Position numbers and translations under genes: made by a program | Part shown: positions 761-26,527 of the stretch, piece by piece | Layout: each line of letters opens with the position of its first letter | Position numbering within the stretch: the first letter of the stretch is position 1 | Notes under the pieces: model-generated | The model's database searches: none | Told to the model about the DNA's origin: nothing | The model's input: the letters and a program-made list of their open reading frames with translations, nothing else | Source: Streptomyces sp. NBC_01803 | GTDB lineage: Bacteria > Actinomycetota > Actinomycetes > Streptomycetales > Streptomycetaceae | Length of the DNA: 64,000 nucleotides | Reading direction: 5' to 3' | Assembly (NCBI RefSeq): GCF_035917415.1 | Contig: NZ_CP109073.1 | Location: 806,001 to 870,000, forward strand

Positions 761-825
761 GCCTCAAATAGCGCAACACAAACCACTATACGCAACATGC
801 TTTCCGTCGCGCAGCGGGTTGTCAA
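761..825 (-). promoter_or_regulatory. Promoter plus paired operator upstream of the Rieske ferredoxin (locus 1)
   Basis: On the minus strand a TTGACA hexamer (825-820) is followed 23 bp later by two 17-bp half-conserved dyads, GTTGC-GTATAGT-GGTTT (796-780) and GTTGC-GCTATTT-GAGGC (777-761). The dyads are offset by exactly 19 bp. The same layout recurs before other operons of the cluster. The position just downstream of the presumed -10 suggests repression. Confidence 0.6.
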
Positions 826-1033
826 GGGAGGAACCGCATCAGTCGGCGTTAGCGCATGAGGTTGCGGGATAAGCAACAGAATGGGTGCGGTGACCGGCGC
901 CCCGGACACGGCGTTCCGCCTCGTGGCGGCCCCGGACGCGCGCGCATCCGGGGCACGACGCCGCAGCCGAACCGCTCGGCGAACGGAAGGCGGGGCCGTG
1001 GACGCACACGTCGTCGCACGGCCCCGTCGTGCC
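826..1033. other. Intergenic, no gene seen
   Basis: This lies between the ferredoxin promoter and the end of the BCCT gene. It holds a short perfect hairpin (ccgcc-tcgt-ggcgg) flanked by two copies of gccccggac, which could end the BCCT transcript. Open frames here are out-of-frame GC artefacts. Confidence 0.4.
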
Positions 1034-2770
1034 TCAGAGCCCGGCTACTGTTGGGGGCTTCTGGGACGCCAGGCCGTTGGTGGATGTGGCGGGGCCTATG
1101 CGGAGTTCGAAGTCGCCGTCGTACTTCTCATGGCCGGCCACGACGGCCGTTTCGATGGCTTCCGTGCACTGCTGTCCACGGATGATGAGCGGGTCCTGGC
1201 GCAGATCGCGGGTGAGAGCGATGCACAACCCGACCATCACCAGGGTGAAGGGGGCGGCCGCGAGGATGGTGAGGTTCTGCAATCCGGTGAGCGCGTCGCC
1301 CGTGCCGCCACCGATGAGCAGCATGACGGCGGCGACCGCCCCGGTCAGCACACCCCAGAACACCACGACGGCCCGGGTCGGTTCCAGGGATCCGCGCTGC
1401 GAGAGCGACCCCATCACGATCGAGGCGGCGTCAGCGCCGGAGACGAAGAAGATCCCGACGAGGATCATCACCAGCAGGCTCGTCACCGTGGCGATCGGGT
1501 ATTGCTGGAGCACGTCGAAGAGTTGGCCCTCGGCTGTCGTCGCGTCGCTGAGGTGCCCCTGGTCCTGCAGCCGTATCGCCGAGCCGCCGAAGATCGCGAA
1601 CCACATCAGACTGACCGAGCTGGGGATCAGGATGACCCCGCCCACGAACTGCCGAATGGTCCGGCCACGACTGATGCGCGCGATGAACATGCCGACGAAC
1701 GGCGTCCAGGAGATCCACCAGGCCCAGTAGAAGACCGTCCACCCGGACAGCCAGTCGGCGACTCCCTCGCCATGCGATGCTTCGGTACGTCCCGCCATCT
1801 GCGTCATGTCGCCGAGGTAGGCGCTGACGGAGGTGGGCAGCAGGTCGAGGATGAGGATGGTCGGCCCGGCGACGAACACGAAGACCGCCAGGGTCAGCGC
1901 CAGCACCATGTTGATGTTGGACAGCCACTGGATGCCCTTGGCGATCCCGGACACCGCGGAGGCGACGAACGCCACGGTCAGCACCACGATCACGGCGATC
2001 AGCAGGCCGGTGCCGACGGTTCCCATCCACCCCAGTTCGGTGATGCCGCTGCCGATCTGCAGGGCGCCGAGCCCCAAGGAGGCCGCAGAACCGAAGAGGG
2101 TGGCGAAAATGGCGAGGATGTCGATGACCCGTCCGCCCCAGCCGTTCGCCCGCTTCGCGCCGATCAGTGGGGTGAACACGGCGCTGATCAACTGCCGGCG
2201 CCCGCGGCGGAAGGTGCTGTAGGCGATGGCCAGGCCCACGACCGCGTAGATCGCCCACGGGTGGAGCGTCCAGTGGAAGAGGGTGGTGGCCATGGCGGTC
2301 TCCGTGGCCTCGGCCGCGTCGGCCGGGGTGGTGCCCGGCGGCGGGCTGGAGAAGTGTGACAGTGGTTCGCTGACGCCGTAGAACATCAGGCCGATGCCCA
2401 TGCCCGCGCTGAACATCATGGCGATCCAGGAGATGGTGCGGAACTCGGGCCGCTCGTTGTCCTGGCCCAGGGTGATCCGCCCGTAACGGCTCATCGCCAG
2501 CCAAAGAGCGAAGACGACGAAGCCCGAGGCGGCGAGGACGAATACCCAGCCGCCGTTCACCATGAGCGCGTCCAGCAGCGTCCCGGACACGCTCTCCAGA
2601 GAATCGGTGGCCGTGGCTCCCACCACGACGAAGGCCAGGGTGAGGGCCGCGCTGACGCCGAAGACGACGGGGTCGGTGCGAGGGCTGACGGTGGTCGCCG
2701 GGCTTCCCGGCAGGTCCGCGCCGACGGGATGGCCTCGGCTCCCGTCTCTGCTGTGTTTTCTGTTTTTCAT
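1034..2770 (-). CDS. BCCT-family glycine betaine/choline transporter
   Basis: A 578-residue membrane protein with about 12 hydrophobic segments and BCCT hallmarks: GMGIGLMFYGVSEP, the tryptophan-rich TM8 segment WTVFYWAWWISWTPFVG followed by MFIARISRGRTIR, and FFVSGADAASIVMG. I chose the ATG at 2770 (MKNRKHSRDG) because AAAGGA lies 7 nt upstream; the frame stays open to 2830 but that start has no good site. It lies 143 bp downstream of the first Rieske oxygenase on the same strand. It probably imports the betaine degraded by the cluster. The C-terminal hydrophilic tail is short, so strong osmotic regulation is not obvious. Confidence 0.9.
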   Translation of the reverse strand: MKNRKHSRDGSRGHPVGADLPGSPATTVSPRTDPVVFGVSAALTLAFVVVGATATDSLESVSGTLLDALMVNGGWVFVLAASGFVVFALWLAMSRYGRITLGQDNERPEFRTISWIAMMFSAGMGIGLMFYGVSEPLSHFSSPPPGTTPADAAEATETAMATTLFHWTLHPWAIYAVVGLAIAYSTFRRGRRQLISAVFTPLIGAKRANGWGGRVIDILAIFATLFGSAASLGLGALQIGSGITELGWMGTVGTGLLIAVIVVLTVAFVASAVSGIAKGIQWLSNINMVLALTLAVFVFVAGPTILILDLLPTSVSAYLGDMTQMAGRTEASHGEGVADWLSGWTVFYWAWWISWTPFVGMFIARISRGRTIRQFVGGVILIPSSVSLMWFAIFGGSAIRLQDQGHLSDATTAEGQLFDVLQQYPIATVTSLLVMILVGIFFVSGADAASIVMGSLSQRGSLEPTRAVVVFWGVLTGAVAAVMLLIGGGTGDALTGLQNLTILAAAPFTLVMVGLCIALTRDLRQDPLIIRGQQCTEAIETAVVAGHEKYDGDFELRIGPATSTNGLASQKPPTVAGL

Positions 2771-2913
2771 GGGTCGTCCTTTCCGAGGGGTGGCGGTGAA
2801 AGTTGTCTCAGGGGTCGGTCGGCAGCTCATGGGCGACCTGGTGGCCTGTCGGGGACGCCGTCGGACGGCCCGCGCGAGCAGTCCCCGGGTTCGTCCGGGG
2901 GCGCGGGATGATC

Positions 2914-4035
2914 TCAGGCGCCGAGCTTGCTCTGAAGCCAGGTGTGGAATGCGCCGATGTGGTGCTCGCTGGGCACCAGGACACCGCCGCTGGCATAGAC
3001 CCGGGAACTCATCCCCGGCTGGGTACGCTCACAGGCGTCGAAATCCTGCTGATTCACCCGGTGGAACAACTCCACCGACCGCTCCACATCCGCACCGCCG
3101 TCGACGACATGGGGCAGATAGAGCCAGTCGCACTCCACCACAGTGCGGTCATGCGCCATCGGGAACATCCGATGGAAGATCACATGATCCGGCACCAGAT
3201 TGATGAACACCTGTGGCCTGACCGTGATCGCGTAATAACGCCGATCCTGCCCCTCGGCGACACCGGGAATACGGCCCAGCCCCTCAGAACCATCGACGGT
3301 GAAACCCTCAACCCCCTCACCGAACTCCGCACCATGACCCACGAAGAACTGCGCCGCATACCCATCAGCGAACTCCGGCAACACCTCCGTCAGCTCCGGA
3401 TGAATCGTCGCGCAGTGATAACACTCCATGAAATTCTCGATGATCAGCTTCCAGTTGGCCTGCACGTCATACGTGATCCGCCGGCCCACCCGCAGATCAT
3501 CGATCCCGTAATTCCCGATCGACTCCACATCACCCAGCCGCTCGACCACCGCACCGATCACGTCCTCCTCGAAGGACGGCGGAACCTCGGCCAGGCACAC
3601 CCACACATACCCCAGCCACTCCCGCACATGGACACCCACCAGCCCGTACCCGACCCGGTCGACATCCGGCATCGACGTCAGATTCGGCGCCGCGACCAGC
3701 TTCCCGTCCAGACCATAGGTCCAGGCGTGATACGGACACTGGAACGCCCGCTTGACCTCACCCGACTCCTCCGTGCACAACTTCGCACCACGGTGCCGGC
3801 AAACGTTCAAGAACGCCCTGACCGACCCGTCCCGGGCACGGGAGACCAGCACACTCTCCCGCCCCACCTGACACGTCCGGAACTGACCCGGCCTGGACAG
3901 ATCCGAAGCGCGGGCCACACAGAACCACATCGCCTCGAAAACCCGCTCCTGCTCCAGAGCGAAAATCCCCGGATCGGTGTAGTACTCCCCCGACAGCGTC
4001 GAGATCAGACTGGAAGACAGATTCGTCATGGTCAC
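2914..4035 (-). CDS. gbcA: Rieske non-heme iron oxygenase, copy 1 (glycine betaine monooxygenase-like, GbcA)
   Basis: 373 residues. The N-terminal Rieske domain has C79-R-H81 and C100-P-Y-H103. The catalytic domain has the mononuclear-iron segment NFMECYHCATIHPEL with H207 and H212. The family removes one methyl from glycine betaine (or related betaines such as stachydrine), giving dimethylglycine and formaldehyde. It sits 20 bp after the sarcosine oxidase gene and before the BCCT transporter. The gene is almost identical to the one at 21805-22926: the only amino-acid differences are A67 (S in copy 2) and S370 in QSKLGA (N in copy 2). The exact substrate is inferred from the surrounding genes. 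Confidence 0.88.
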   Translation of the reverse strand: MTMTNLSSSLISTLSGEYYTDPGIFALEQERVFEAMWFCVARASDLSRPGQFRTCQVGRESVLVSRARDGSVRAFLNVCRHRGAKLCTEESGEVKRAFQCPYHAWTYGLDGKLVAAPNLTSMPDVDRVGYGLVGVHVREWLGYVWVCLAEVPPSFEEDVIGAVVERLGDVESIGNYGIDDLRVGRRITYDVQANWKLIIENFMECYHCATIHPELTEVLPEFADGYAAQFFVGHGAEFGEGVEGFTVDGSEGLGRIPGVAEGQDRRYYAITVRPQVFINLVPDHVIFHRMFPMAHDRTVVECDWLYLPHVVDGGADVERSVELFHRVNQQDFDACERTQPGMSSRVYASGGVLVPSEHHIGAFHTWLQSKLGA

Positions 4036-4075
4036 ATGTCACCTTCGGAGAAACGTCAGACGCGCACACGTCGAG
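2918..4075. repeat. Large direct repeat, copy A (gbcA unit)
   Basis: About 1.16 kb matching 21809-22966 in the same orientation, with only about five mismatches that I can see. It covers the whole oxygenase gene except the stop codon. It also covers the spacer with its ribosome binding site and the last codons of the upstream gene (…RRVRV stop here, …RRVGV stop in copy B). It shows no terminal inverted repeats or transposase, so it is a segmental duplication or gene conversion, not an insertion sequence. Confidence 0.95.
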
Positions 4076-5204
4076 GGTCGAACAGGGCGATGGAATGCTT
4101 GGTGGTGCCTTCGGTGGCCAGGTCGGCGAGGATTTCGCCGATCACCGGAACGAACTTGAACCCATGGCCGGAGAACCCGCACGCCACTGTCACTTGGGGG
4201 TGCTCGGGGTACCGGGAAATGACGAAATGCTCGTCGGGGGTGTTGGCGTACATGCAGGCCGCGGCCTTGAGGAAGCTGCCGGGCAGAGTGGGGATGCGCG
4301 GGCGCAGGTACTCGGTCATGGCCGCGATCTCGTCCGGGTGGATTCGGCGGTCAAGACTGTCGGGGTCGCTGGGGACGCCCTTGCGGAAAAAGGCGACCTT
4401 AGCTCCGCCTTCGGGTCCGTCGAGGGCGGGGAAGCCGTAGATCTGGGTGCCGTCCGGATCCTCCCAGACGTAGACGGGGTGCCCGTCGGCGGAAAACGGG
4501 CCGGTCCCGCCTTCGGGCTGGAACCAGTACATGACCTGCCGCTCCACCGTCACGGTCACGCCCAGGTCGGGGAGGAGCTTGGGGGCCCACGCGCCGGTGG
4601 CGATGACCAGCCGGTCGGCGGTGTACACGCCGCGGTCGGTGGCCACCCAGGCCCTGCCCCCCGGTCCGTCGGTCTCCCAGCGCCGGACGACCTCCCCGAA
4701 ACGCAGCTCGGCACCGCGGGCGCGGGCCAGCTCCAGGTGGGCGGTGACGGTCGCCTCCGGCCGGGCCACCCCCGCCTTGCGCTCGTAGAAGGCGACGTCC
4801 TCGGCGGCCGGACGGAAAGTCGGGAAGCGTCGCCGGATGTCGGCGGCGGTAAGGATCTCGTGGTCCAGGTCCCACCGCTGGGCGCTCTTCAGGGTGCCGG
4901 AGAACGCCGTGCTGTCCTCACGGCCGATCATCAGGCCGCCGGTTTCGATGAAGACCTCGCGTCCCGAGTCGACCGTCAGCTTCTCCCACAGTTCGTGGGC
5001 ACGGAGCAGCAAGGGAACGTAGGCGGGGTCCTCGAAGTACGCCTGCCGGTAGACGCGGGATCCACCGTGGCTGGAGCCGAAGTTGTGGGCCGGGCCGAAG
5101 CGCTCCAGGCCGAGCACTCGCTGGCCGCGAGCGGCGAGGTGGTAGGCGGCTGCGCTGCCCATCCCGCCCAGACCGACGACGATCACGTCGTACGAGGAGG
5201 GCAT
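4056..5204 (-). CDS. solA: FAD-dependent monomeric sarcosine oxidase / N-methyl amino acid oxidase (SolA/MTOX family)
   Basis: 382 residues, the family's normal length. The N-terminal FAD motif is GLGGMGSAA (11-19), and [14 protein letters not shown] follows. Near residue 315, [11 protein letters not shown] supplies the Cys that binds FAD covalently in MSOX/MTOX, and [10 protein letters not shown] is the C-terminal signature. It oxidises an N-methyl amino acid, here probably sarcosine, to glycine, formaldehyde and H2O2. The ATG at 5204 has GGAGA upstream. It lies between the formaldehyde-detoxification pair and gbcA. The last five residues come from the duplicated segment shared with folP at 22.9 kb. 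Confidence 0.87.
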
Positions 5205-5296: not shown

Positions 5297-5926
5297 TCAG
5301 TGCCCTCGGGCGATCCATTCGCCGAGAGCGGGTGCTTCGGCCCCGATCGAGGTGTTGCCGCCGTGCCCGGTGTGCACAGTGGTGTCGGCGGGGAGAGTGA
5401 GCAGCCGGTCGCGGATCGAGGCGATGATGGTGTCGAAGTCGGAGTACGAGCGGCCGGTGGCGCCGGGGCCGCCCTGGAAGAGGGTGTCGCCGGAGAACAG
5501 TGCCTCCAGCTCCGGTGCGTACAGGCAGACCGCCCCGGGAGCGTGCCCGGGGGTGTGCACCACATGCAGTCCGGTGCCGGCCACCGTCAGCAGCTCGCCG
5601 TCGACCAGCTCCCGGTCGGGCTCCCGCTGAGGGTGCTGGAGCTTCCACAGCACCGTGTCAGCGGGGTGGAGCAGGATGGGCGCTCCGGTGCGGGCCGCGA
5701 GGGCCGGAGCGGCGTTGATGTGGTCGTTGTGGGCGTGCGTGCACACGATGGCGACCAGACGCCGGTCGCCGACCGCCGCGGCGATCGCCGCGTCGTCGTG
5801 CGCGGCATCGATGACCAGGACCTCCTGCTCATCGCCGACCAGCCAGACGTTGTTCTCCACCTCCCAGCTGCCGCCGTCCAGCTCGAAGGTCCCGGAGGTG
5901 ATCAGGTGCTCGATCCGCGCGGTCAC
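5297..5926 (-). CDS. MBL-fold hydrolase, probable S-formylmycothiol hydrolase
   Basis: 209 residues with the metallo-beta-lactamase motif THAHNDH, a later HTPGHAPG, and FSGDTLF, the pattern of glyoxalase-II-like thioesterases. Its ATG overlaps the stop of the mycothiol-dependent dehydrogenase gene. Actinobacteria commonly pair these two genes, so the likely reaction is hydrolysis of S-formylmycothiol to formate and mycothiol. The fold is seen in the sequence; the substrate is inferred from pairing. Confidence 0.85.
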
Positions 5927-7008
5927 AGGACCACCACCGAGCGCAGAACCTCACCACGGTGCATCTTCTCGAACGCCGACTCCACCTGGTCCAGGGCGAT
6001 CTCCTCGCTGACGAAGGCGTCCAGGTCGAGGCGTCCCTGCAGATAGAGGTCGATCAGGGCGGGGAAGTCCCGGGAGGGCAGGCAGTCGCCGTACCAGGAA
6101 GACTTCAGGGCCCCGCCGCGGCCAAAGACGTCCAGCAGCGGCAGTTCCAGCTTCGCCTCGGGCATGGGCACGCCCACCAGCACCACCGTTCCGGCCAGAT
6201 CGCGGGCGTAGAACGCCTGCTTGTACGTCTCGGGGCGGCCCACCGCGTCCACGACGACATCGGCGCCGAAGCCGCCGGTGAGCGTGCGGACGGCCTCGAC
6301 AGCGTCGGTCTCGGAGGAGTTGACGGTGGCGGTGGCGCCCATCTTCTCGGCCCACTTCAGCTTCCGCTCGTCGACGTCGACGGCGATGATGCGGCTGGCG
6401 CCGGCGACAGCGGCGCCGGCGATGGCCGCCATGCCCACACCTCCGCAGCCGATCACGGCGATCGAGTCGCCCCTGCCCACGGCGCCGGTGTTGACCGCGG
6501 CGCCGAACCCGGCCATCACGCCGCAGCCGAGCAGCCCCGCCGCGGCGGGCGAGGCAGCCGGATCGACCTTGGTGCACTGTCCGGCGGCGACCAGGGTCTT
6601 CTCGGCGAACGCGCCGATGCCGAGCGCGGAGCTAAGCGGCGTGCCGTCGAGCAGCGTCATCGACTGGGTGGCGTTGTGGGTGGTGAAGCAGTACCACGGC
6701 TTGCCCTTGCGGCAGGCCCGGCACTGACCGCAGACCGCGCGCCAGTTGAGAACGACGAAGTCGCCGGGCGCGACCTCGGTGACGTCCTCACCGACCGCCT
6801 CGACCACGCCCGCGGCCTCATGACCGAGCAGGAAGGGGAACTCGTCGGTGATCCCGCCCTCCCGATAGTGCAGGTCGGTGTGGCAGACGCCGCACGCCTG
6901 CACCCGCACCAGCGCCTCCCCCGGGCCGGGATCCGGCACCAGGATGTTCTCCACCGAGACCGGAGCGCCTTTCTCCCGGGCGACGACTGCGCGTACCTCG
7001 TGTGACAT
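5923..7008 (-). CDS. mscR: S-(hydroxymethyl)mycothiol dehydrogenase (formaldehyde detoxification)
   Basis: A 361-residue class III zinc alcohol dehydrogenase. Visible are GVCHTDLH (C42, H43), LGHEAAG (H63), a structural-zinc block [15 protein letters not shown], and the NAD motif CGGVGMAAI. Length and sequence match actinobacterial mycothiol-dependent formaldehyde dehydrogenases. It oxidises the formaldehyde-mycothiol adduct made when betaine and sarcosine are demethylated. It is the first gene of a minus-strand unit mscR - MBL - solA - gbcA - bccT, with GAGGAG before the ATG and the shared operator 230 bp upstream. Confidence 0.9.
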
Positions 7009-7235
7009 GGTCAAGCTCCTCGCTGGGGGCCGAAAGCGAGCTTCGGCCGGACGTTCTGTGGCTGGCGACGACGCCGGATCGCGCGGTGAGACCGGCGAGG
7101 GAAGGAAGTGACCTTCGCCGGTGGTGGGTGCTCCGCACGAACGAGGTCCGATGTGCTCAACGGCCCCGGCGGCCGTTCGCGGGAAGATCCAGCAGAAGTT
7201 CGTTGAGGCCAGGACGGAGTCGCCGGACCCGCGCT

Positions 7236-7299
7236 GTTGCGCATAGCGCACCCTTGTCTATTTGACACAACAGTCTGGCGCTCCGGAGGGGGCTGTCAA
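7236..7299 (-). promoter_or_regulatory. Promoter plus paired operator of the mscR-gbcA-bccT unit (locus 2)
   Basis: On the minus strand TTGACA (7299-7294) is followed after 22 bp by GTTGT-GTCAAAT-AGACA (7271-7255). Offset by 19 bp is a second site, read on the plus strand as GTTGC-GCATAGC-GCACC (7236-7252). The layout is the same as at loci 1, 4, 6 and 7. Confidence 0.65.
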
Positions 7300-7471
7300 G
7301 GGGGCAGTCGACCCGAATCGCCCGACGGTGTTCGGCCGGGCCGCCCGGACGGCTTCCCGAGCGAGAAGCGCGGCACGACGAACCGCCGGAGGAACCGCTG
7401 GGACACGTGGCTCGCGCACCGCGACCTCCTTCCAGCACCACCGCGGGATCCACCGCCGCGACACGACACTT

Positions 7472-7534
7472 GTTGCGCCCACAGATGCACGTTTCTGCAT
7501 ACGCAACAAAATATCGATATTGTATCGGCGTCAA
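7472..7534 (-). promoter_or_regulatory. Second paired operator between mscR and iclR (locus 3)
   Basis: Two dyads are offset by 19 bp: GTTGC-GCCCACA-GATGC (7472-7488) and GTTTC-TGCATAC-GCAAC (7491-7507). TTGACG (7534-7529) on the minus strand lies 21 bp further upstream. The orientation points back towards mscR, so it may be a distal promoter of that unit or a binding site shared with the divergent iclR. The rest of the 7009-7693 gap holds no gene. Confidence 0.5.
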
Positions 7535-7685
7535 GACATGCGGTTGAAGTTCTTGTAACTTCCCGGCCCGCCCGGACAACGGCTTCGCCCCCATCGGCCG
7601 CCGGCGGGGCCCGCCCAGCCCCCTCCCCCAGAACTTCCGGAAGAGGCCACCCAAAGGTCCCCACGAGGAGCGCTCTGCGCATAGA

Positions 7686-7702
7686 GTTGCGCCATGAGCA
7701 AC
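7686..7702. promoter_or_regulatory. Perfect GTTGC-N7-GCAAC dyad over the iclR start codon
   Basis: GTTGC-GCCATGA-GCAAC. The ATG of the regulator gene is inside the 7-bp centre. Binding here would block translation-initiation-region transcription, consistent with autorepression. The same arrangement occurs at the second iclR (18625-18641). Confidence 0.65.
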
Positions 7703-8524
7703 AATTTGCGTGGTCGTTGGCCGCTTGAGGGGGCGGACTCCTCTCACCAGCCGGAGTCCCCGGTGCGATCCGTCGACCGGGCCGTGGCCATCCTGGAGTT
7801 TCTGGGGCGCCGGGAAGAGGCGGGCGTCACGGAGATAGCCGCCGAGCTCGGGGTGCACAAGTCGACGGCATCCCGGCTCGCCACCGCTCTGGAGGTGCGC
7901 GGGCTCATCGAGCAGACGGATGAGCGCGGCAAGTACCGCCTCGGTCTCGGCCTGATCCGCCTGGCCGGTGCCGCCACGGTCCGACTGGACCTGTCCCGGC
8001 AGAGCCGCCGGGTCTGCGAGCGGCTCGCGGCACAGGTCGCGGAGACCATCAACCTCGCCATCCCCGAAAGAGACGCCGCGATCAACATCGACCAGGTGCT
8101 CGGCCCCTCCGCCATCACCACGCACAACTGGCTGGGACGGCGGTCGCCGCTGCACGCCACCTCCAGCGGCAAGGCGCTGCTGGCACATCTGCCCGAGCCC
8201 CAGCGCGAGAGCACGCTGGCGGCACCCCTGGAGCGCTACACGCCGCGCACCGTCACCGATCCCGGCACCCTCCGGGCTCAACTGGCGAGCATCCGCACGG
8301 AGGGCTGCGCCTACAGCGTGGAGGAGTTCGAAACGGGTCTGAACGCGGTGGCCGCGCCGGTCCTCACCGTCAACGGGCAGGTGGTGGCCGCTCTCAGCGC
8401 CTCGGGGCCGTCCTTCCGGTTGACCGAGCAGCGACTGCTGGAGATCTCCCCCCTGGTGCGGGCCGCGGCCAGGAAGATCTCAGCCCGGCTCGGCTACCTC
8501 CGCCGGTCCGAGACTCACGGGTGA
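7694..8524 (+). CDS. IclR-family transcriptional regulator 1
   Basis: 276 residues. The N-terminal winged helix (about 25-90) includes SVDRAVAILEFL, VTEIAAELGVHKSTASRLATAL and KYRLGLGLIRLA. The C-terminal IclR ligand domain includes LHATSSGKALLAHL and a final ALSASGPSFRL. It is transcribed divergently from the mscR-gbcA-bccT unit and is clearly paralogous to the IclR at 18633. It is a strong candidate for the protein that binds the GTTGC-N7-GCAAC pairs in the cluster. The effector (betaine, dimethylglycine, sarcosine or formaldehyde-related) cannot be told from sequence. Confidence 0.92.
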   Translation: MSNNLRGRWPLEGADSSHQPESPVRSVDRAVAILEFLGRREEAGVTEIAAELGVHKSTASRLATALEVRGLIEQTDERGKYRLGLGLIRLAGAATVRLDLSRQSRRVCERLAAQVAETINLAIPERDAAINIDQVLGPSAITTHNWLGRRSPLHATSSGKALLAHLPEPQRESTLAAPLERYTPRTVTDPGTLRAQLASIRTEGCAYSVEEFETGLNAVAAPVLTVNGQVVAALSASGPSFRLTEQRLLEISPLVRAAARKISARLGYLRRSETHG

Positions 8525-12432: not shown

Positions 12433-12442
12433 CGGCAGGCTC

Positions 12443-14674: not shown

Positions 14675-17392
<2,718 letters not shown>

Positions 17393-17418: not shown

Positions 17419-17454
17419 GTTGCGTATAACACAGTCTATTGTGTAGAGCGAAAC
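17419..17454. promoter_or_regulatory. Paired operator in the dmgdh/purU divergent gap (locus 5)
   Basis: GTTGC-GTATAAC-ACAGT (17419-17435) and ATTGT-GTAGAGC-GAAAC (17438-17454), offset by 19 bp. No TTGACA lies at the usual distance, so it may be an auxiliary site for looping or a weak promoter. The rest of the 17195-17532 gap shows no gene. Confidence 0.45.
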
Positions 17455-17532: not shown

Positions 17533-17598
17533 TTGACCAGTCGGTCACCCACACTGGACGATGTTGCGTATCACTCATCACGTTGCGCATTGCGCACC
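17533..17598 (+). promoter_or_regulatory. Promoter plus paired operator of purU (locus 6)
   Basis: TTGACC (17533-17538) is followed after 24 bp by GTTGC-GTATCAC-TCATC (17563-17579) and GTTGC-GCATTGC-GCACC (17582-17598), offset by 19 bp. The purU ribosome binding site begins 5 bp further on. Confidence 0.65.
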
Positions 17599-18624: not shown

Positions 18625-18641
18625 GTTGCGTTATGGGCAAC
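18625..18641. promoter_or_regulatory. Perfect GTTGC-N7-GCAAC dyad over the iclR 2 start codon
   Basis: GTTGC-GTTATGG-GCAAC, with the ATG at 18633 in the centre. It mirrors the site at 7686-7702. I saw no convincing partner dyad 19 bp away. Confidence 0.65.
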
Positions 18642-19430
18642 CACGCGGCAGAGAGCGAAACAGCAGGTCCAACGGTGAACGGGGTGCAGTCCGTTGACCG
18701 TGCCGTCAGCGTCCTGGAGATTCTCGCCCAGCGGGGCGAGGCGGGCGTGAGCGAGGTCGCCGCCGAGATCGACGTCCACAAGTCGACCGCGTTCCGCCTG
18801 CTCGGGGCGCTGGAGGCGCGCGGTCTGGTCGAGCAGGCGGCCGACCGGGGCAAGTACCGACTCGGCTTCGGGATCGTGCGCCTGGCGGGGGCGGTGACGG
18901 GCCGTCTGGACATCACGCAGCAGGGCCGGCCCGTGTGCGAGCGGCTCAGCGAGGAGATCGGCGAGACCGTGAACATCGCTGTCCAGCAGGAGCACTACGC
19001 GGTCAACCTCTATCAGGTACGCGGCCCGGGCGCGGTGGGCACGCACAACTGGGTCGGGCAGCTGACCCCACTCCACGCCACGTCCAGCGGCAAGATCCTG
19101 CTCGCCCACCTGTCGGCGAAGGGGCGCGCCGAAGCGCTCGCGGCGTCCCCGTTGCAGAAGCTGACGCCACACACCCTGACCACCAGGGCGAAGCTGGAGA
19201 AGAATCTCACCGAGGCGCGGGAGCGCGGATACGCGGTGACGCTGGAGGAACTGGAGATCGGGCTGCACGCCATGGCGGCCCCGATCCGGTCTCGCGACGG
19301 TGAGGTCATCGCCGCCCTCAGCGCCTCCGGCCCGGCGTATCGCTTCACGGAGGCGCGCATGCTCCAGTTCGCACCCGTGCTGCTCAAGGGCGCGGACGAG
19401 ATCAGCCACCGGATGGGCTACCTGGGCTGA
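18633..19430 (+). CDS. IclR-family transcriptional regulator 2
   Basis: 265 residues from the ATG at 18633; the longer open frame starting at 18513 lies in the purU terminator. HTH region: SVDRAVSVLEIL, VSEVAAEIDVHKSTAFRLLGAL, KYRLGFGIVRLAGAV. Effector domain: LHATSSGKILLAHL and AALSASGPAYRF. It is a close paralog of IclR 1 at 7694 with the same motif spacing, so the two probably recognise the same DNA. Its 3' end overlaps the convergent formate dehydrogenase gene by 13 bp. Confidence 0.92.
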   Translation: MGNHAAESETAGPTVNGVQSVDRAVSVLEILAQRGEAGVSEVAAEIDVHKSTAFRLLGALEARGLVEQAADRGKYRLGFGIVRLAGAVTGRLDITQQGRPVCERLSEEIGETVNIAVQQEHYAVNLYQVRGPGAVGTHNWVGQLTPLHATSSGKILLAHLSAKGRAEALAASPLQKLTPHTLTTRAKLEKNLTEARERGYAVTLEELEIGLHAMAAPIRSRDGEVIAALSASGPAYRFTEARMLQFAPVLLKGADEISHRMGYLG

Positions 19431-21766
19431 GCCTCCCCCGGCCCGCCGGACGGGGAACCGCGGCGCTCCAGGCGTACCACGATGCTCTTGGACGTCGGCG
19501 TGTTGGACGTGTCGGCCACCGAGTCGAGCGGGACGAGCACGTTGGCTTCGGGGAAGTACGCCGCGCAGCAGCCGCGGGGCGTGTCGTAGGCGACGGCGCG
19601 GAAGGCATCCGCCCGCCGCTCCAAGCCGTCCGGCCACTCGCTGACGAGGTCCACCAGCCCGCCGTCGGTGATCCCGCGCTCCGCGAGGTCGTCGGGGTGG
19701 ACGAAGACCACCCGGCGTCCCCGGCGGATGCCACGGTAGCGGTCGTCGAGCCCGTAGATCGTGGTGTTGTACTGGTCGTGGCTGCGCAGTGTCTGCAGCA
19801 GCAGGCGGCCGGGCGGGACGCGCGGCACCTCCAGCGGGTTGACCGTGAAGTTGGCCTTACCCGTGCGGGTGGGGAAGCGCCGCTCGTCTCGGGGGGCGTT
19901 CGGCAGGGTGAAGCCGCCGGGACGCCGTACCCGGGCGTTGAAGTCGTCGAATCCGGGCACGACCCGGGCGATGCTGTCGCGGACGGCGTCGTAGTCGGCT
20001 CCAAAAGCCGCCCACGGTACGTCGCTGCCGGTGGCGGCGCCGCAACCGGCACCGAAGAGGCCGCGTGCCAGCCGGCAGACGACTTCCGGTTCGGAGAGCA
20101 GGTGCGGCGAGGCGGGTGGCAGCCCGCCGCGCGAGGCGTGCACCACCCCCATCGAGTTCTCGACGGTGACGAACCGGTCCGCCCCGTCCGGTCCTCGATC
20201 CCGCTCGGTGCGGCCGAGGACGGGGAGGATGAGGGCTTCCCGGCCGCATACCGCGTGGGAGCGGTTGAGCTTGGTGGAGACCTGGACGGTGAGCCGGCAG
20301 CTCCGCAGGGCCCGCTCGGTGACGGCCGTGTCCGGAGCGGCGGAGACGAAGTTGCCGCCCATGGCGAAGAACACCTTCACCTCCCCGGCGCCCATCGCCC
20401 GGATCGTCTCCACCGCGTCGAAACCGTGGTGGCGGGGCGGGTCGAACCCGAATTCCTTCCGCAGCGCGTCGAGGAATTCCGGCGCCGGCTTCTCGTAGAT
20501 GCCCATCGTCCGGTCGCCCTGGACGTTGGAGTGGCCCCGCACGGGGCACACTCCCGCGCCGGGGCGCCCGATGTCGCCGCGCAGCAGCAGGAAGTTCACG
20601 ACCTCGCGGATGGTGGGCACGGAGTGCTTGTGCTGGGTCAGGCCCATGGCCCAGCACACCACAATCGACTGGGCGGACATGACGTCGCGAGCGGTCGCCT
20701 CGATGGCATCGCGCGCGAGTCCGGTCGCCTCGGCGACGTCGTCCCAGTCGAGTTCGCGCAGCCGTTCGGCGTATGCCTCGAAGCCGTCGGTGTGCGCGGT
20801 GATGAAGTCACGGTCGAGGACCGTTCCGGGCGCGGCGTCCTCGGCGTCGAGCAGCAGTCGTGACAGCGCCTGAAAGAGCGCCATGTCGCCGCCGAGCCGT
20901 ATCTGCAGGAACCGGTCCGCGAGGGACGTGCCGCCACCTGCGACTCCACGGGCGTTCTGCGGGTTCTTGAAGCGCAGCAGCCCGGCCTCGGGCAGTGGGT
21001 TCACCGCGACGATGCGCGCACCGCGCCGCTTGGCCTTCTCCAGCGCGGACAGCATGCGCGGGTGGTTGGTGCCGGGATTCTGCCCGACGACGAAGATCAG
21101 TCCGGCACGGTGCAGGTCGTCGAGGTGAACGCTGCCCTTGCCCACCCCGATCGTCTCGGTGAGCGCCGAACCGCTCGACTCGTGGCACATGTTCGAGCAG
21201 TCCGGCAGGTTGTTGGTCCCGAATTGCCGTACGAGGAGCTGGTAGAGGTACGCCGCCTCGTTGGAGGTCCGCCCCGAGGTGTAGAAGGCGGCCTCGTCGG
21301 GGCTTCGCAGCGCCTTGAGCTCACGGGAGACGATGGTGAATGCCGTCTCCCAGGTGACCGGCACGTACGTCTCCGAGCCGGCCGGCTTGTACATCGGCTC
21401 GGTGAGGCGGCCCTGCTGGCCCAACCAGTAGTCGCTGCGGCTCAAGAGGTCGCTCACCGGGTGCGCGGCGAAGAATTCGGGCGTCACCCGGCGGACGGTG
21501 GCCTCCTCGGCGACGGCTTTGGCGCCGTTCTCGCAGAACTCGGCCTTGCTGCGGTGATCACCCTCCGGCCAGGCGCAGCCGGGGCAGTCGAAGCCGTCCT
21601 TCTGGTTGACCTTGAGCAGCGACAGCGCGGTGCGCCGCACGCCCATCTGGTCGTATCCCATGCGCAACGCATGGGTCACCGCGGGAATCCCCGCAGCCCA
21701 GGTCTTGGGCGCGGTCACCTCCAGCGCGTCCTCGCCGGGGTCCTCGCGCGGCGCCTTGCGTGCCAT
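19418..21766 (-). CDS. Molybdopterin formate dehydrogenase, catalytic subunit (FdhF/YdeP-like)
   Basis: 782 residues, the size of cytoplasmic FdhF/YdeP-type oxidoreductases. An N-terminal FDCPGCAWPE block is followed by NMCHESSG (probable Mo-ligand Cys), VGQNPGTNHPRML, ARIVAVNP, MGLTQHKHS, RGHSNVQGDRTMGI and a C-terminal molydopterin-dinucleotide domain with PRGCCAAYFPEANVLVPLD. It likely oxidises to CO2 the formate from PurU and from the mycothiol pathway. It lies 38 bp after the second gbcA, at the end of the unit fused ORF - folP - gbcA2 - fdh. No electron-transfer subunit is nearby. GGAGAGG precedes the ATG. Confidence 0.85.
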   Translation of the reverse strand: MARKAPREDPGEDALEVTAPKTWAAGIPAVTHALRMGYDQMGVRRTALSLLKVNQKDGFDCPGCAWPEGDHRSKAEFCENGAKAVAEEATVRRVTPEFFAAHPVSDLLSRSDYWLGQQGRLTEPMYKPAGSETYVPVTWETAFTIVSRELKALRSPDEAAFYTSGRTSNEAAYLYQLLVRQFGTNNLPDCSNMCHESSGSALTETIGVGKGSVHLDDLHRAGLIFVVGQNPGTNHPRMLSALEKAKRRGARIVAVNPLPEAGLLRFKNPQNARGVAGGGTSLADRFLQIRLGGDMALFQALSRLLLDAEDAAPGTVLDRDFITAHTDGFEAYAERLRELDWDDVAEATGLARDAIEATARDVMSAQSIVVCWAMGLTQHKHSVPTIREVVNFLLLRGDIGRPGAGVCPVRGHSNVQGDRTMGIYEKPAPEFLDALRKEFGFDPPRHHGFDAVETIRAMGAGEVKVFFAMGGNFVSAAPDTAVTERALRSCRLTVQVSTKLNRSHAVCGREALILPVLGRTERDRGPDGADRFVTVENSMGVVHASRGGLPPASPHLLSEPEVVCRLARGLFGAGCGAATGSDVPWAAFGADYDAVRDSIARVVPGFDDFNARVRRPGGFTLPNAPRDERRFPTRTGKANFTVNPLEVPRVPPGRLLLQTLRSHDQYNTTIYGLDDRYRGIRRGRRVVFVHPDDLAERGITDGGLVDLVSEWPDGLERRADAFRAVAYDTPRGCCAAYFPEANVLVPLDSVADTSNTPTSKSIVVRLERRGSPSGGPGEAQPR

Positions 21767-21804: not shown

Positions 21805-22926
21805 CTACGCGCCGAGCTTGTTCTGGAGCCAGGTGTGAAATGCGCCGATGTGGTGCTCGCTGGGCACCAGGACACCGCCGCTGGCATAGACCCGGGAACT
21901 CATCCCCGGCTGGGTACGCTCACAGGCGTCGAAATCCTGCTGATTCACCCGGTGGAACAACTCCACCGACCGCTCCACATCCGCACCGCCGTCGACGACA
22001 TGGGGCAGATAGAGCCAGTCGCACTCCACCACAGTGCGGTCATGCGCCATCGGGAACATCCGATGGAAGATCACATGATCCGGCACCAGATTGATGAACA
22101 CCTGTGGCCTGACCGTGATCGCGTAATAACGCCGATCCTGCCCCTCGGCGACACCGGGAATACGGCCCAGCCCCTCAGAACCATCGACGGTGAAACCCTC
22201 AACCCCCTCACCGAACTCCGCACCATGACCCACGAAGAACTGCGCCGCATACCCATCAGCGAACTCCGGCAACACCTCCGTCAGCTCCGGATGAATCGTC
22301 GCGCAGTGATAACACTCCATGAAATTCTCGATGATCAGCTTCCAGTTGGCCTGCACGTCATACGTGATCCGCCGGCCCACCCGCAGATCATCGATCCCGT
22401 AATTCCCGATCGACTCCACATCACCCAGCCGCTCGACCACCGCACCGATCACGTCCTCCTCGAAGGACGGCGGAACCTCGGCCAGGCACACCCACACATA
22501 CCCCAGCCACTCCCGCACATGGACACCCACCAGCCCGTACCCGACCCGGTCGACATCCGGCATCGACGTCAGATTCGGCGCCGCGACCAGCTTCCCGTCC
22601 AGACCATAGGTCCAGGCGTGATACGGACACTGGAACGCCCGCTTGACCTCACCCGACTCCTCCGTGCACAACTTCGCACCACGGTGCCGGCAAACGTTCA
22701 AGAACGCCCTGACCGACCCGTCCCGGGAACGGGAGACCAGCACACTCTCCCGCCCCACCTGACACGTCCGGAACTGACCCGGCCTGGACAGATCCGAAGC
22801 GCGGGCCACACAGAACCACATCGCCTCGAAAACCCGCTCCTGCTCCAGAGCGAAAATCCCCGGATCGGTGTAGTACTCCCCCGACAGCGTCGAGATCAGA
22901 CTGGAAGACAGATTCGTCATGGTCAC
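21805..22926 (-). CDS. gbcA: Rieske non-heme iron oxygenase, copy 2 (GbcA-like)
   Basis: 373 residues with all metal ligands intact (C79, H81, C100, H103, H207, H212). It differs from copy 1 only at S67 and N370. It ends in TAG, against TGA in copy 1. The near-identity at silent sites means recent duplication or ongoing conversion. It lies 20 bp after folP and 38 bp before fdh, under the locus 7 operator, so it could be expressed together with a different set of partners than copy 1. Confidence 0.88.
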   Translation of the reverse strand: MTMTNLSSSLISTLSGEYYTDPGIFALEQERVFEAMWFCVARASDLSRPGQFRTCQVGRESVLVSRSRDGSVRAFLNVCRHRGAKLCTEESGEVKRAFQCPYHAWTYGLDGKLVAAPNLTSMPDVDRVGYGLVGVHVREWLGYVWVCLAEVPPSFEEDVIGAVVERLGDVESIGNYGIDDLRVGRRITYDVQANWKLIIENFMECYHCATIHPELTEVLPEFADGYAAQFFVGHGAEFGEGVEGFTVDGSEGLGRIPGVAEGQDRRYYAITVRPQVFINLVPDHVIFHRMFPMAHDRTVVECDWLYLPHVVDGGADVERSVELFHRVNQQDFDACERTQPGMSSRVYASGGVLVPSEHHIGAFHTWLQNKLGA

Positions 22927-22966
22927 ATGTCACCTTCGGAGAAACGTCAGACGCCCACACGTCGAG
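21809..22966. repeat. Large direct repeat, copy B (gbcA unit)
   Basis: Matches 2918-4075 in the same orientation. The left edge is the base next to the oxygenase stop codon. The right edge is inside the last codons of folP, so the C-terminus of FolP (…SRRVGV) was brought in by the repeat. Confidence 0.95.
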
Positions 22967-23897
22967 AACCGGGTCGGCGGCGCACAGGCGGTTGCGCCGA
23001 GGCTGCCGCCTCGACGCCCCAGCGGGCAGTCACCCGCACCGCGTCGAGCGTCGAGGCCACATCGTGCACACGCAGGCACCAGGCGCCCTGCGCGGCGGCG
23101 AGCACGGAAACGGCGGCGGTCGCGGCGTCCCGCGACCGCGCGGGGCGCGGGTGCCCCGTTGTTGGATCCGCCAGCAAACGGCCCAGGAACGACTTGCGTG
23201 ACGCGCCCACCAGGACGGGATGACCCAGCGCGCCAACCTCCCCGAGACGACCCAGCAGCTCCCAGTTGTGCTCGGGCGTCTTGGCGAAGCCCAGCCCAGG
23301 GTCGATGATCAGGTAGCCGGGCGGGATCCCCGCTCGCAGCGCGGCCTCGACCCGCAGGCTCAACTCGTCGACCACACCGGTGACGACGTCGTCATAGTTC
23401 GCGTTCACCTGCATGTCGGCGGCGTGTCCGCGCCAGTGCATCACCACGTACGGCGTGGCGGCCCGCGCCATCAGGGGGAGCATCCTGGGGTCGGCAAGGC
23501 CACCTGAGACGTCATTGATGAGCCGTGCACCCGCATCGAGAGCGCGGGCGGCGACTTCGGCCCGCATGGTGTCAACGCTGACGATCCCGCCTGCCGTGGC
23601 GAGTTCCCGGACGACGGGCAAGACACGCCGCAATTCCTCCTCGACCGGCGGGCGGGCGGCGCCGGGGCGGGTGGACTCACCGCCCACGTCCACGATGTCC
23701 GCTCCCTGCTCAAGCAGCGCCAGTCCGTGCGCGACAGCGGATTCCGGAGCGAACGACCGCCCGCCGTCGGAGAACGAGTCCGGCGTGACGTTCACCACGC
23801 CCATGACCAGCGTCCGGCCGGGCCGCGGAAGCCCGTAGGGGTGGAGATCCGGCACTCCCGGGCACGGTGCGGCGGTGGCGTGGGCTGTGGCGTTCAT
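22947..23897 (-). CDS. folP: Dihydropteroate synthase (cluster copy)
   Basis: 316 residues. DHPS motifs are complete: MGVVNVTPDSFSDGGRSF, DIVDVGGESTRPGA, LINDVSGG, VVMHWRG, LIIDPGLGFAKTPEHN and VLVGASRKSFLGRLL. It joins p-aminobenzoate to hydroxymethyl-dihydropterin. Both its N-terminus (17 extra residues) and C-terminus are longer than usual, and the C-terminal tail coincides with the duplicated segment. Standing among C1 genes, it probably raises the folate pool used by dimethylglycine and sarcosine demethylation. A role as a drug-insensitive spare copy is also possible. Confidence 0.92.
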   Translation of the reverse strand: MNATAHATAAPCPGVPDLHPYGLPRPGRTLVMGVVNVTPDSFSDGGRSFAPESAVAHGLALLEQGADIVDVGGESTRPGAARPPVEEELRRVLPVVRELATAGGIVSVDTMRAEVAARALDAGARLINDVSGGLADPRMLPLMARAATPYVVMHWRGHAADMQVNANYDDVVTGVVDELSLRVEAALRAGIPPGYLIIDPGLGFAKTPEHNWELLGRLGEVGALGHPVLVGASRKSFLGRLLADPTTGHPRPARSRDAATAAVSVLAAAQGAWCLRVHDVASTLDAVRVTARWGVEAAASAQPPVRRRPGSRRVGV

Positions 23898-24151: not shown

Positions 24152-24219
24152 GGTGCGTATCACGAAACTAATTGCGTAAAGCGCAACGTAAGTCTGGAGT
24201 CACCCCTACCCCTTGTCAA
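24152..24219 (-). promoter_or_regulatory. Promoter plus paired operator of the folP-gbcA2-fdh unit (locus 7)
   Basis: On the minus strand TTGACA (24219-24214) is followed after 26 bp by a dyad read on the plus strand as ATTGC-GTAAAGC-GCAAC (24171-24187), then by GGTGC-GTATCAC-GAAAC (24152-24168). Offset 19 bp. This is the same design as the promoter of the intact ferredoxin (locus 1), supporting the fusion-remnant reading of the next ORF. Confidence 0.65.
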
Positions 24220-24504: not shown

Positions 24505-25551
24505 TCATTCGCTTGTCCGGCACACCCCCGACGCCACCGCGAGCAGCCGGGACGCCTTCAGCTCGGTCTCCGCCCACTCCCGCTCCGGGTCGGAACCCCA
24601 GGTGATACCGGCGCCCGTACCGAACCGCAGCGCCGGGCCCCCGGGGGCGGAGCGGTCGATCCAGAAGGTGCGGATACCCACGGCCAGCTCGCCGGCCCCG
24701 CGGTCGGCGTCGACCCAGCCGATGCCGCCGCAGTACGGGCCGCGGGGGGCCGTCTCCAGCGCCCCGATGATCCGCAGTGCGCTGGACTTGGGCGCGCCCG
24801 TGACAGAGCCGGGAGGAAACGTTCCGGCCAGCAGCTCGGGCCAGCCCACTCCCTCCGCCAGTTCGCCCCGCACGGTGGAGACCAGGTGGACCAAGCCCGG
24901 ATGCGACTCGACCACGCACAGCTCCGGAACCGTCACGGATCCGGTGGCGCAGACGCGCCCCAGGTCGTTGCGGACCAGGTCCACGATCATCACGTTCTCG
25001 GCGCGGTCTTTCTCCAGCAGGTCATCGGCGGTCCGACCGGTGCCCTTGATCGGCCCGGACTCCACGGTCCGCCCAGTGCGCCGCAGGAAGAGCTCGGGCG
25101 ATGCGGTGGCCACCTCGACGCCATGGGTCGGCAGCCGGACCGTGCCGGCGTACGGGGCGGGATTGCCGCGGGCCAGCCAAGAGGTCAGGGCGTCGGCATC
25201 GGCCGCCGCGGGGTCGGGCAGGGGCGCGGACAGCACCCGGCACAGATTGGCCTGGTACACCTCGCCCGCCGCGATGTGCTCGCGTATGCGCCGCACCCCC
25301 GCGGTGTACGCGGCCCGGTCCAGTGACGAGGACCAGTCGGCGACCGCCGGGCCGCGCCAGGCGCCGGACACCGGATCGGGCACCGGCGCCCGGCGTACGT
25401 CCCCGAAGCGGGCACACACCAGATCGCCCTCGAAGTCGGCGACCACTGCCCAGAAGCCGGAGGACTCCAAGGCCGCGGGGTCGCTGGTGACGTCGCGAAG
25501 GTCAGCGGCGACAAGGCCGTCGAAGCGGGCCAGTGGGGCGAGGTCGTGCAC
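24505..25551 (-). CDS. pabB: Aminodeoxychorismate synthase component I-like (chorismate-binding, PabB)
   Basis: 348 residues from a GTG at 25551; the open frame continues to 26007 but that extension looks non-coding. The chorismate-binding core is intact: IAAGEVYQANLCR, ASPELFLRR, ESGPIKGTGRT, ENVMIVDLVRNDLGRV, VVESHPGLVHLVSTV, PGSVTGAPKSSALRII and YCGGIGWV. PIKGT, rather than the PIAGT of anthranilate synthase, marks the p-aminobenzoate branch. Together with folP it suggests locally boosted folate synthesis. No glutaminase (PabA) or PabC partner is adjacent. Confidence 0.85.
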   Translation of the reverse strand: MHDLAPLARFDGLVAADLRDVTSDPAALESSGFWAVVADFEGDLVCARFGDVRRAPVPDPVSGAWRGPAVADWSSSLDRAAYTAGVRRIREHIAAGEVYQANLCRVLSAPLPDPAAADADALTSWLARGNPAPYAGTVRLPTHGVEVATASPELFLRRTGRTVESGPIKGTGRTADDLLEKDRAENVMIVDLVRNDLGRVCATGSVTVPELCVVESHPGLVHLVSTVRGELAEGVGWPELLAGTFPPGSVTGAPKSSALRIIGALETAPRGPYCGGIGWVDADRGAGELAVGIRTFWIDRSAPGGPALRFGTGAGITWGSDPEREWAETELKASRLLAVASGVCRTSE

Positions 25552-26527
25552 GGCTGCGAGCCTTTCTCGTGACCTGGGCCAGAGGTTCTGCGGGCCCTCC
25601 AGGGCTTGGCCCTCCAGGGCTTGTCGAAGATCTCGTCCGTGGTCCTGGGGCCAGGCGAAAGGTCGAGGACGCGCGGCACCGACCGCGGTCTCCGCGCCGC
25701 GTTCACGCCACGGGATCAGCCCCTTCCCCGAACAGGCGGTCGACTGGGGCGGCAGGTTCCGCTCCGCTTCCCAGCGCCACGTCGTCGCCCCAGCGCGAGG
25801 TGAACACAGCCTCGAAGACCGCCTGGCAGATCCGCTCCGGGCGCGGACCGAACCGCCGTCGACCCCCTGAGGCGTCCTTCGCCCCGGGGACGGATCGCAG
25901 CCAGTCGCCCCGCGGGCACGGGACGTCGCGAGGCTGATCGTGAGCCCACGGCTGGCGCGAGAGGTCTTGAGCGTGGGACACGAAGAGGAAAGCCCTTTGT
26001 TGCACATAAGGAGAAACGTCTCTCAATGTACAACATCTGCTGCCGCCTGAGCCGGTTCCGGGTGCGCGGGCCGGGCGGGACGCGGTGGGGGGTCGGCGCA
26101 CAGGTACGCGGCGGCGATGAGTGTTCCGGCCCGGTGGGCGTCGTAGCCCTCGGGGCCGACGGAGTCCGCCGCGACCAGGTTCAGGGAGCGCCCGTCGCCG
26201 AGCGGCACCGCGGTCCTGCCGTCAGGGGGGCGAAGCGGCTCCCGATGCCGGGGATGTCGGTGGCGCGCCGCCGGTGGGGAGGCCGGGCCAGGACGACGGC
26301 CGCCGGGGCCACCTGATCTCCGCTCTGCGCGACGACGGCATCGCGCCGCCCCACACCAACACACCCACCCCGCAAGACCGGGGCCAGACACGCACAACAC
26401 CCCAGCCCGACCACCCGCCAACGCCGACCCACAACCGGGCAACGCTCCCGCTCAGGCCCAGCAACTCGCAAGAGCGGTGGGGGCGTACCCCTGCCGGATG
26501 GACCGACCGGGCCACCGGCGCCGCGCA
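25552..26527. other. Decayed segment between pabB and the XRE regulator
   Basis: No intact gene. On the minus strand, 25703-25860 reads PRPERICQAVFEAVFTSRWGDD…PAAPVDRLFGEGADPVA stop, which looks like an unidentified C-terminus. Around 26023-26260 two frames splice as IPGIGSRFAPLTAG / TAVPLGDGRSLNLVAADS…GYDAHRAGTLIAAAYLC. This resembles a frameshifted enzyme remnant, with a faint likeness to the C-terminus of short adenosylhomocysteinase-type proteins. These calls are weak. Confidence 0.35.
25967..26034 (+). promoter_or_regulatory. Paired operator in decayed DNA at the island edge (locus 8)
   Basis: GTTGC-ACATAAG-GAGAA (25999-26015) and GTCTC-TCAATGT-ACAAC (26018-26034) are offset by 19 bp and together form a larger imperfect palindrome. 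TTGAGC at 25967-25972 lies 26 bp before the first dyad, the same spacing as loci 4 and 7. No intact plus-strand gene follows, so the controlled gene may have been lost. Confidence 0.5.

Follow-up and report, generated by a model that had tools for sequence, protein, structure and literature searches.

The 64,000-nucleotide stretch described here (the window) covers positions 806,001 to 870,000 of the single-contig 5.85 Mb genome of Streptomyces sp. NBC_01803 (NZ_CP109073.1) and has a G+C content of 71.8%. Its left part carries genes that appear to serve the uptake and demethylation of glycine betaine and the handling of the released one-carbon units, together with two IclR-type regulator genes and ten pairs of 17-bp GTTGC-N7-GCAAC-like dyads. 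Within each pair, the two dyads start 19 bp apart. Judging from the sequence comparisons below, an IclR-type protein very probably switches these betaine-to-one-carbon genes through the 19-bp pairs, both in Streptomyces and in other actinobacteria.

A first-pass annotation had listed eight of the pairs, and all eight are present where it placed them, each with an offset of 19 bp. Eight is too low a number: the window holds two more (842/861 and 7667/7686) and one unpaired dyad at 18625, while the genome adds a pair at 793713 and possibly another at 5715677.

Paired dyads of the window

The pairs were scored with a position weight matrix built from 68 pairs out of 112 selected in relatives, none of them from the window; the same sites also trained a sequence-only genome model (R1). 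As the training sites were chosen with the same dyad and offset, the matrix tests likeness to the relatives' sites and does not derive a motif from scratch. The eight pairs of the first-pass annotation rank 1–4 and 6–9 in the window, with window E-values from 1.4e-10 to 2.3e-4, and the pairs at 7667/7686 (E 2e-5) and 842/861 (E 3.3e-4) are also found. Beyond the first 26.1 kb, the best match reaches only 10.8 bits. A leave-class-out matrix, trained on 110 pairs (two doubtful ones removed) and omitting those whose target gene belongs to the class being scored, still gives E ≤1.6e-4 for all ten pairs. Sixty dinucleotide shuffles of the window gave no match of at least 20 bits (highest 19.25), against exactly ten in the real window.

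The leftmost putative operator (761..796, minus strand; 25.2 bits, E 2.3e-4, leave-class-out E 4.7e-5) precedes the Rieske ferredoxin, ferredoxin reductase, glyA, sdaA, and fdhD genes, with TTGACA 23 bp upstream. A second lies on the far side of the same promoter (842..877, plus strand; 24.8 bits, leave-class-out E 1.6e-4), and in relatives nine pairs likewise occur at least 60 bp upstream of the Rieske ferredoxin gene, several of them at 113 bp. The mscR genes, for mycothiol-dependent formaldehyde dehydrogenase, are preceded by the pair at 7236..7271 (minus strand, E 2.2e-5), with TTGACA 22 bp upstream. Its second dyad matches just five of the ten core letters, which is why seven of the eight originally listed pairs passed a simple pair filter.

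Between mscR and iclR1 lies the pair at 7472..7507, whose strand is undecided (E 2.3e-4); on the minus strand it has TTGACG 21 bp upstream. The matching site precedes a gene reading as a major facilitator superfamily (MFS) transporter in some relatives, and in the window positions 7009–7471, about 460 bp, hold no clear gene where some relatives carry this MFS-type gene. No match to it was found in the window or in two further stretches of the genome (L005 and L006). The 7472 operator may be a leftover of such a gene. The pair at 7667..7702 (plus strand) spans the start codon of iclR1 and is also a genome-model match, at contig position 813670.

Three pairs occupy the region around purU. The first precedes the dimethylglycine oxidase-like gene (17127..17162, minus strand, E 1.6e-7; TTGACA 26 bp upstream), and the second lies between that gene and purU (17419..17454, strand undecided, E 6.2e-7). 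The third, belonging to purU itself, is the window's best match (17563..17598, plus strand; E 1.4e-10, whole-genome E 1.3e-5) and has TTGACC 24 bp upstream. The unpaired dyad across the iclR2 start codon (18625..18641, plus strand) is perfect, GTTGCGTTATGGGCAAC, and the matrix scan shows no partner dyad at 18606, 19 bp upstream (E 5.8).

Further right, the pair at 24152..24187 (minus strand, E 2.7e-10; TTGACA 26 bp upstream) stands ahead of a Rieske remnant, a folP-like gene, and a second betaine monooxygenase-like gene. The short open reading frame behind it (23890–24140, minus strand) resembles a Rieske ferredoxin at its beginning but not further on. Since relatives have a Rieske ferredoxin there, the frame appears to be a remnant. 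The last pair (25999..26034, strand undecided, E 2.1e-5) lies near a pabB-like gene, and its target is uncertain. PabB was rejected as a conserved target, being the closest gene to no relative's pair, though pabB is present in eight of the 79 loci described below.

The five TTGACA or TTGACC boxes noted in the first pass are all present at the distances given above, and with the TTGACG box at 7472 a TTGAC box lies within 40 bp of six of the ten window pairs. The suggestion that an offset of nearly two helical turns puts both dyads on the same DNA face holds only approximately: at 10.5 bp per turn, 19 bp amounts to 1.8 turns and misses two full turns by about 70 degrees.

Conservation, target genes, and pathway

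Counts made within the window alone give a modest signal. Lone dyads with up to two mismatches occur 30 times against 32 expected, and the single dyad, not being above chance, was rejected as the unit. At the loosest threshold, 18 pairs have an offset of 19 bp, but 18 also occur at offsets of both 18 and 50. Stricter thresholds give nine pairs at 19 bp against at most five at any other offset, six against at most three, and six against at most two. Because lone dyads are not enriched and the window-only peak is modest, other genomes were brought in as the test.

The test set comprised 79 loci (L007–L085), the best IclR2 matches listed in a protein-guided scan that kept the best 80; some of the named genomes in it appear twice or thrice. 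Streptomyces is the label of 77 of the loci, and their IclR2 proteins are 80–89% identical to that of the window. After merging of pairs with identical surroundings, a threshold of 15 of 20 core letters gave 319 distinct pairs at offset 19, whereas offsets 32–119 averaged 20.4 pairs and reached 83 at most. At 17 of 20 letters, 156 pairs compare with an average of 2.1 and a maximum of 20. Twenty-nine permuted half-sites gave 9.6 pairs on average and 37 at most. The loci are related and the pair counts therefore not independent; the contrast between offsets is made within the same DNA. An offset of 20 bp (64 pairs) was considered as a second spacing and rejected. In the first 14 loci, 12 of 13 such pairs consist of the start-codon dyad and downstream iclR2 codons, and they are therefore read as conserved coding sequence.

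The relatives' pairs were mapped to 25 query proteins from the source genome, with a zone reaching up to 350 bp upstream of a gene or 60 bp inside it. Of the 319 pairs, 313 fall in the zone upstream of pathway genes, and the zone makes up 18.9% of that DNA. This figure is to be read with caution, since pairs at other offsets also lie mostly in the zone (17.7 of 20.4 on average), probably in large part by reusing the same dyads. The closest genes are those for dimethylglycine oxidase (52 pairs), IclR2 (52), PurU (51), Rieske ferredoxin (45), MscR (44), a BetB-like aldehyde dehydrogenase (28), betaine monooxygenase (24), ferredoxin reductase (7), and the BCCT transporter (6), with four others represented once each. 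Six pairs lie away from query genes. Three of them stand ahead of an MFS-type gene (L010, L027, and L035), one at the edge of its locus (L050) repeats the dimethylglycine oxidase operator, one (L083) resembles the class upstream of iclR2, and one (L056) appears to be a chance occurrence.

Soils and osmotically stressed cells are rich in glycine betaine and choline. The catabolic pathway leads from glycine betaine through dimethylglycine, sarcosine, glycine, and serine to pyruvate, with mycothiol dehydrogenase, FolD, PurU, and formate dehydrogenase draining off formaldehyde and folate-bound one-carbon units. Most target genes fit this one betaine/one-carbon pathway. The first-pass idea of a one-carbon regulon is supported in the wider form of a betaine/one-carbon regulon by the positions of the 313 pairs.

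With 150 of 1000 candidates scored, the sequence-only model gave 13 matches at E ≤10 in the whole 5.85 Mb genome (seven of them with E <0.02), at nine places that all fall in one 36-kb stretch, 793,713–830,187. One of them, at 793713 (L005:3713), lies outside the window, has a matrix E-value of 1.3e-9 for the genome and TTGACG 22 bp upstream, and precedes an ABC transporter operon. From the translations, we take this operon to be of the PotABCD type; it is a candidate for the import of betaine or of compounds formed by its demethylation. A pattern search added the site at 5715677 (genome E 0.014), flanked by what we take to be an APC permease gene and the betB-betA genes of choline oxidation. 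The suggested new members of the regulon are the PotABCD-like transporter, the MFS-type transporter, and perhaps the APC permease beside betB/betA. Such specificity should allow the regulon to be read in many actinobacterial genomes.

The cluster genes are named from protein family models or from their translations. On the minus strand, the BCCT betaine/choline transporter (1034..2830) exceeds the cut-off of TIGR00842, its best match, NF047988, being below its own cut-off. At higher coordinates on this strand lie a glycine betaine monooxygenase-like Rieske oxygenase (2914..4035; NF058607, E 1.1e-63, below cut-off), a monomeric sarcosine/N-methyl amino acid oxidase (4056..5204; NF008425, above cut-off), and S-(hydroxymethyl)mycothiol dehydrogenase (5923..7008; TIGR03451, 691 bits against a cut-off of 513). 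The genes soxG, soxA, soxD, and soxB of a heterotetrameric sarcosine oxidase (8671..13675, minus strand) include a soxG just below the cut-off of TIGR01375; the other three names are our assignments from the translations. The flavoprotein with a GcvT-like C-terminal half encoded at 14675..17113 (minus strand) is taken to be dimethylglycine oxidase-like. All of its NCBIfam matches are below cut-off, the best being NF053776 (trimethylamine N-oxide demethylase; 220 of 1100 bits), followed by soxA and GcvT models. On the plus strand, purU (17613..18485) encodes a formyltetrahydrofolate deformylase (TIGR00655, 355 bits against 286). Four further minus-strand genes are presumed from their translations to encode a Rieske ferredoxin (344..664), FolD (13749..14651), an FdhF-like formate dehydrogenase (19418..21766), and a FolP-like dihydropteroate synthase copy (22947..23897).

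The second betaine monooxygenase-like gene (21805..22926, minus strand) is 99.6% identical to the first. The repeated segments, 2918–4075 and 21809–22966, comprise 1158 bp at this identity and lie 19 kb apart, which points to a recent duplication or gene conversion. The folP-like gene inside the betaine cluster also occurs in 30 of the 79 relatives' loci, and two other places in the source genome match it, at 61% and 37% identity. A choline dehydrogenase-like gene is found twice in the genome (L005:1476–3248 and L006:4290–6071), about 4.9 Mb apart, with proteins 97.3% identical over 553 residues.

Candidate regulators and mode of action

The window encodes two IclR-family proteins, IclR1 (7694..8524, plus strand) and IclR2 (18633..19430, plus strand), which are 53% identical. 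Both have near full-length matches to several IclR models, all below the narrow equivalog cut-offs, and both combine the N-terminal helix-turn-helix and C-terminal effector domains that define the family; solved IclR proteins also match (1mkm, E 3.6e-31). IclR2 is the likely cognate regulator. Its type accompanies the operators throughout the fetched stretches; IclR1-type genes occur in just seven of the 79 loci (five at ≥75% identity), which makes IclR2 the likelier of the two. The recognition segment of IclR1 closely resembles that of IclR2, and IclR1 may read the same predicted sites. Four loci (L123–L126) carry IclR1-like genes, two of which adjoin soxA/soxG. At the probable start, three of the four have a common block with ATGGCTTCCAACGACC at its end, and L125 has a close variant of this block.

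Across 41 related genomes, at least three pattern matches occur in seven, and precisely these seven encode an IclR protein at ≥77% identity. None of the 34 others, whose IclR identity is at most 60% or which have no match at E ≤1e-60, reaches three (Fisher 4e-8). A survey of 296 genomes of the class, scoring at most eight candidates per genome, found at least three matches in 13 of 32 genomes with an IclR at E ≤1e-75, against two of 264 without. Of these two exceptions, one (G087) also has three control matches and the other (G235) has none. Pairs extend to less similar regulators as well. In 22 loci with about 1.5 kb on each side, 17 from other families and five from the same genus, there are 23 pairs at offset 19, compared with an average of 4.0 and a maximum of 10, and 13 of the 23 come from other families. 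In 18 of these loci, at least one query gene stands beside the IclR gene, including purU, fdhF, betB, dimethylglycine oxidase, mscR, Rieske ferredoxin, and soxA/soxG genes. The co-occurrence in the 41 genomes, together with the dyads over both iclR starts, argues for the IclR-type regulator that the first reading had proposed.

All 81 distinct IclR2 orthologues have a dyad with at least eight of ten core letters across the start codon, 48 of them perfect. Of these genes, 58 begin with ATG and 23 with GTG, and their second codon reads AGC in 75, GGC in five, AAC in one, and never TCN. A leaderless transcript is expected to have TANNNT 6–7 bp before the start codon. This box lies exactly 6 bp before it in 80 of the 81 orthologues, and both iclR genes of the window conform, with TATAGT-TGCGTT-ATG and TAGAGT-TGCGCC-ATG. 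A -10 box at this distance predicts a leaderless mRNA, and the TANNNT spacing with an operator over the start is the sequence pattern expected of an autorepressed leaderless gene. The position of the site is not new, since IclR site centres are reported to peak at -3 to +1 of the gene start (PMC8222616).

For the remaining targets, promoter geometry was counted in those 289 of the 319 pairs with complete flanks and a gene no more than 130 bp away; 51 belong to iclR2, leaving 238. TTGAC lies 20–30 bp before the operator in 203 of these 238, never at those distances on the far side, and in none of the 51 iclR2 pairs. With a spacer of 17–18 bp, the -10 box, as read from the sequences, ends just ahead of the first GTTGC. 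The operator starts directly after it, so that a bound protein would cover the transcription start, a position that suggests repression. The four arms, in promoter order, contain 8.3, 3.4, 5.8, and 6.4 bits of information (100 sites). The inner right arm of the first dyad is thus presumably read least, and an asymmetric tetramer may be one explanation of this unevenness.

The best explanation as a whole, and one that we consider likely, is that an IclR2-type repressor acts on four-box operators of betaine/one-carbon genes, each consisting of two GTTGCG-N5-CGCAAC-like dyads with centres 19 bp apart. A tetramer of two dimers would sit on each pair, directly behind the -10 box, and block transcription of genes for glycine betaine uptake, stepwise demethylation, and handling of the released one-carbon units. 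The controlled genes would be those for betaine monooxygenase and its ferredoxin partners, dimethylglycine oxidase, PurU, and the mycothiol-formaldehyde dehydrogenase, while GlyA, SdaA, sarcosine oxidase, FolD, and formate dehydrogenase would be expressed together with them. Some pathway compound would release the repressor. The paralogue IclR1 would probably share the operators, and each iclR gene would limit itself through the dyad over the start codon of its leaderless mRNA, with the right arm in codons 2–3.

A more far-reaching version is put forward tentatively, as something that could well be true. It proposes a betaine/one-carbon regulator found throughout the actinobacteria, with an asymmetric operator (three strong boxes and one weak inner one) behind the -10 box and self-repression on a leaderless start, where the operator in the first three codons would have fixed a Ser-Asn start of the protein. 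If so, the start-codon dyad would be a clean case of an operator constraining both a leaderless start and the first residues of a protein.

Several observations weigh against the best explanation given above. In the window, iclR2 has only a single dyad, the pairs at 842, 7667, 17419, and 25999 have no TTGAC within 40 bp, and the pair at 25999 has no clear target gene. Those at 842 and 17419 sit upstream of a neighbouring promoter-proximal pair, where activation or looping is possible. The genome-model scan missed 7472, 25999, and 5715677; a reversed control pattern has one match in the genome against four for the real pattern, and the lone outlier at 5715677 may therefore be chance. Nineteen of the 32 class genomes that encode a related IclR do not reach three matches, including four with an IclR at 70–71% identity and one match each. 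Among the 22 less similar iclR loci, nine lack a 19-bp pair. The four IclR1-like loci L123–L126 have neither pairs nor strong dyads, and their proteins may use another operator. Finally, the nearest model for both proteins, BhcR, describes an activator in Paracoccus (PMC11323563).

The alternative that survives best is that the IclR proteins bind the pairs but mainly activate or act dually, as BhcR does. We consider this unlikely. Both proteins score highest against the BhcR model of NCBIfam (188.7 and 190.4 bits, below the equivalog cut-off of 350), BhcR activates the bhc cluster and, according to its authors, possibly represses itself (PMC11323563), and the upstream pairs at 842 and 17419 would suit an activator; the 203 operators that begin 20–30 bp after TTGAC, however, lie in a blocking place. 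That a transcription factor other than the IclR proteins reads the dyads is distinctly improbable. The dyad-free loci L123–L126 would fit it, but the exact co-occurrence with IclR2 and the dyads over 81 of 81 iclR2 starts do not, and both the GTT-11-AAC geometry and a tandem spacing of 18–22 nt are those given for IclR proteins (PMC8222616).

A role of the repeats in RNA, as leader hairpins or attenuators, appears highly improbable. Most pairs would fall in the 5' leader of the transcript, and 70.9% of cells form standard pairs, against 21–47% in slid versions, as holds for any palindrome. Yet the right arm of the first dyad is degenerate, and the 842 and 17419 pairs lie upstream of a promoter-proximal pair. 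The hairpin was rejected on the variation of its arms, which shows no compensation: changes on both sides occur in one of 680 cells, a value that all 500 shuffles equal or exceed. Despite the unenriched lone dyads and the modest offset peak of the window, a chance pattern picked by eye has a negligible probability in view of the matrix from other genomes, the shuffles, the whole-genome scan, and the loci of other families.

Comparison with known systems

The statement that no published operator fits this description does not hold for the arrangement. Literature searches aimed at the regulon gave no description of it among the matches listed, nor any regulator of glycine betaine/choline demethylation in Streptomyces. 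The main text of PMC8222616 lacks the words sarcosine, betaine, folate, formate, and choline; this statement does not extend to its supplementary regulon tables, where a prior listing is possible. Sarcosine/dimethylglycine clusters of Arthrobacter and Corynebacterium U-96 share glyA, soxBDAG, sdaA, and purU, and the main text describing them does not mention IclR (PMC3534580).

Among the proteins, TtgV of the IclR family (structures 2xrn and 2xro) is homologous by sequence (E 5.7e-13), and the effector domains of E. coli IclR and AllR (1tf1 and 2o99) are homologous to that of IclR2. An Asp and a Cys of AllR, at positions which we take to line the glyoxylate pocket, align with Thr and Ala in IclR2. 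BhcR of Paracoccus denitrificans resembles the window's proteins as the closest NCBIfam model, as an IclR-type regulator, and in its link to glyoxylate-side metabolism; unlike the protein proposed here, it is an activator, and its ligand, glyoxylate, is not implied for IclR2 (PMC11323563).

The operators have closer counterparts. The TphR operator TTTTTGCGCATAGCGCAAAAA contains a palindrome core, TGCGCATAGCGCA, that also occurs in the first dyad at 7236; TphR differs in serving terephthalate utilization in Comamonas and in its AAA/TTT flanks, in place of GTT/AAC (PMC8222616). Suvorova and Gelfand (2021, PMC8222616) predicted tandem palindromes 18–22 nt apart, mainly 19–21, for 94 orthologous groups of IclR proteins, and the paired arrangement, with its 19-bp spacing, is therefore of a known kind. 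In that work, GTT-11-AAC is a named IclR motif class, with the 17-bp palindromic consensus GTTYCRYW3RYGRAAC. The sites described here share with this class the 17-bp GTT-N11-AAC palindromes, the tandem spacing of 18–22 nt between centres, and the peak at the gene start, but carry G/C at positions 4/14 (GTTGC) where the class consensus has Y/R (GTTYC).

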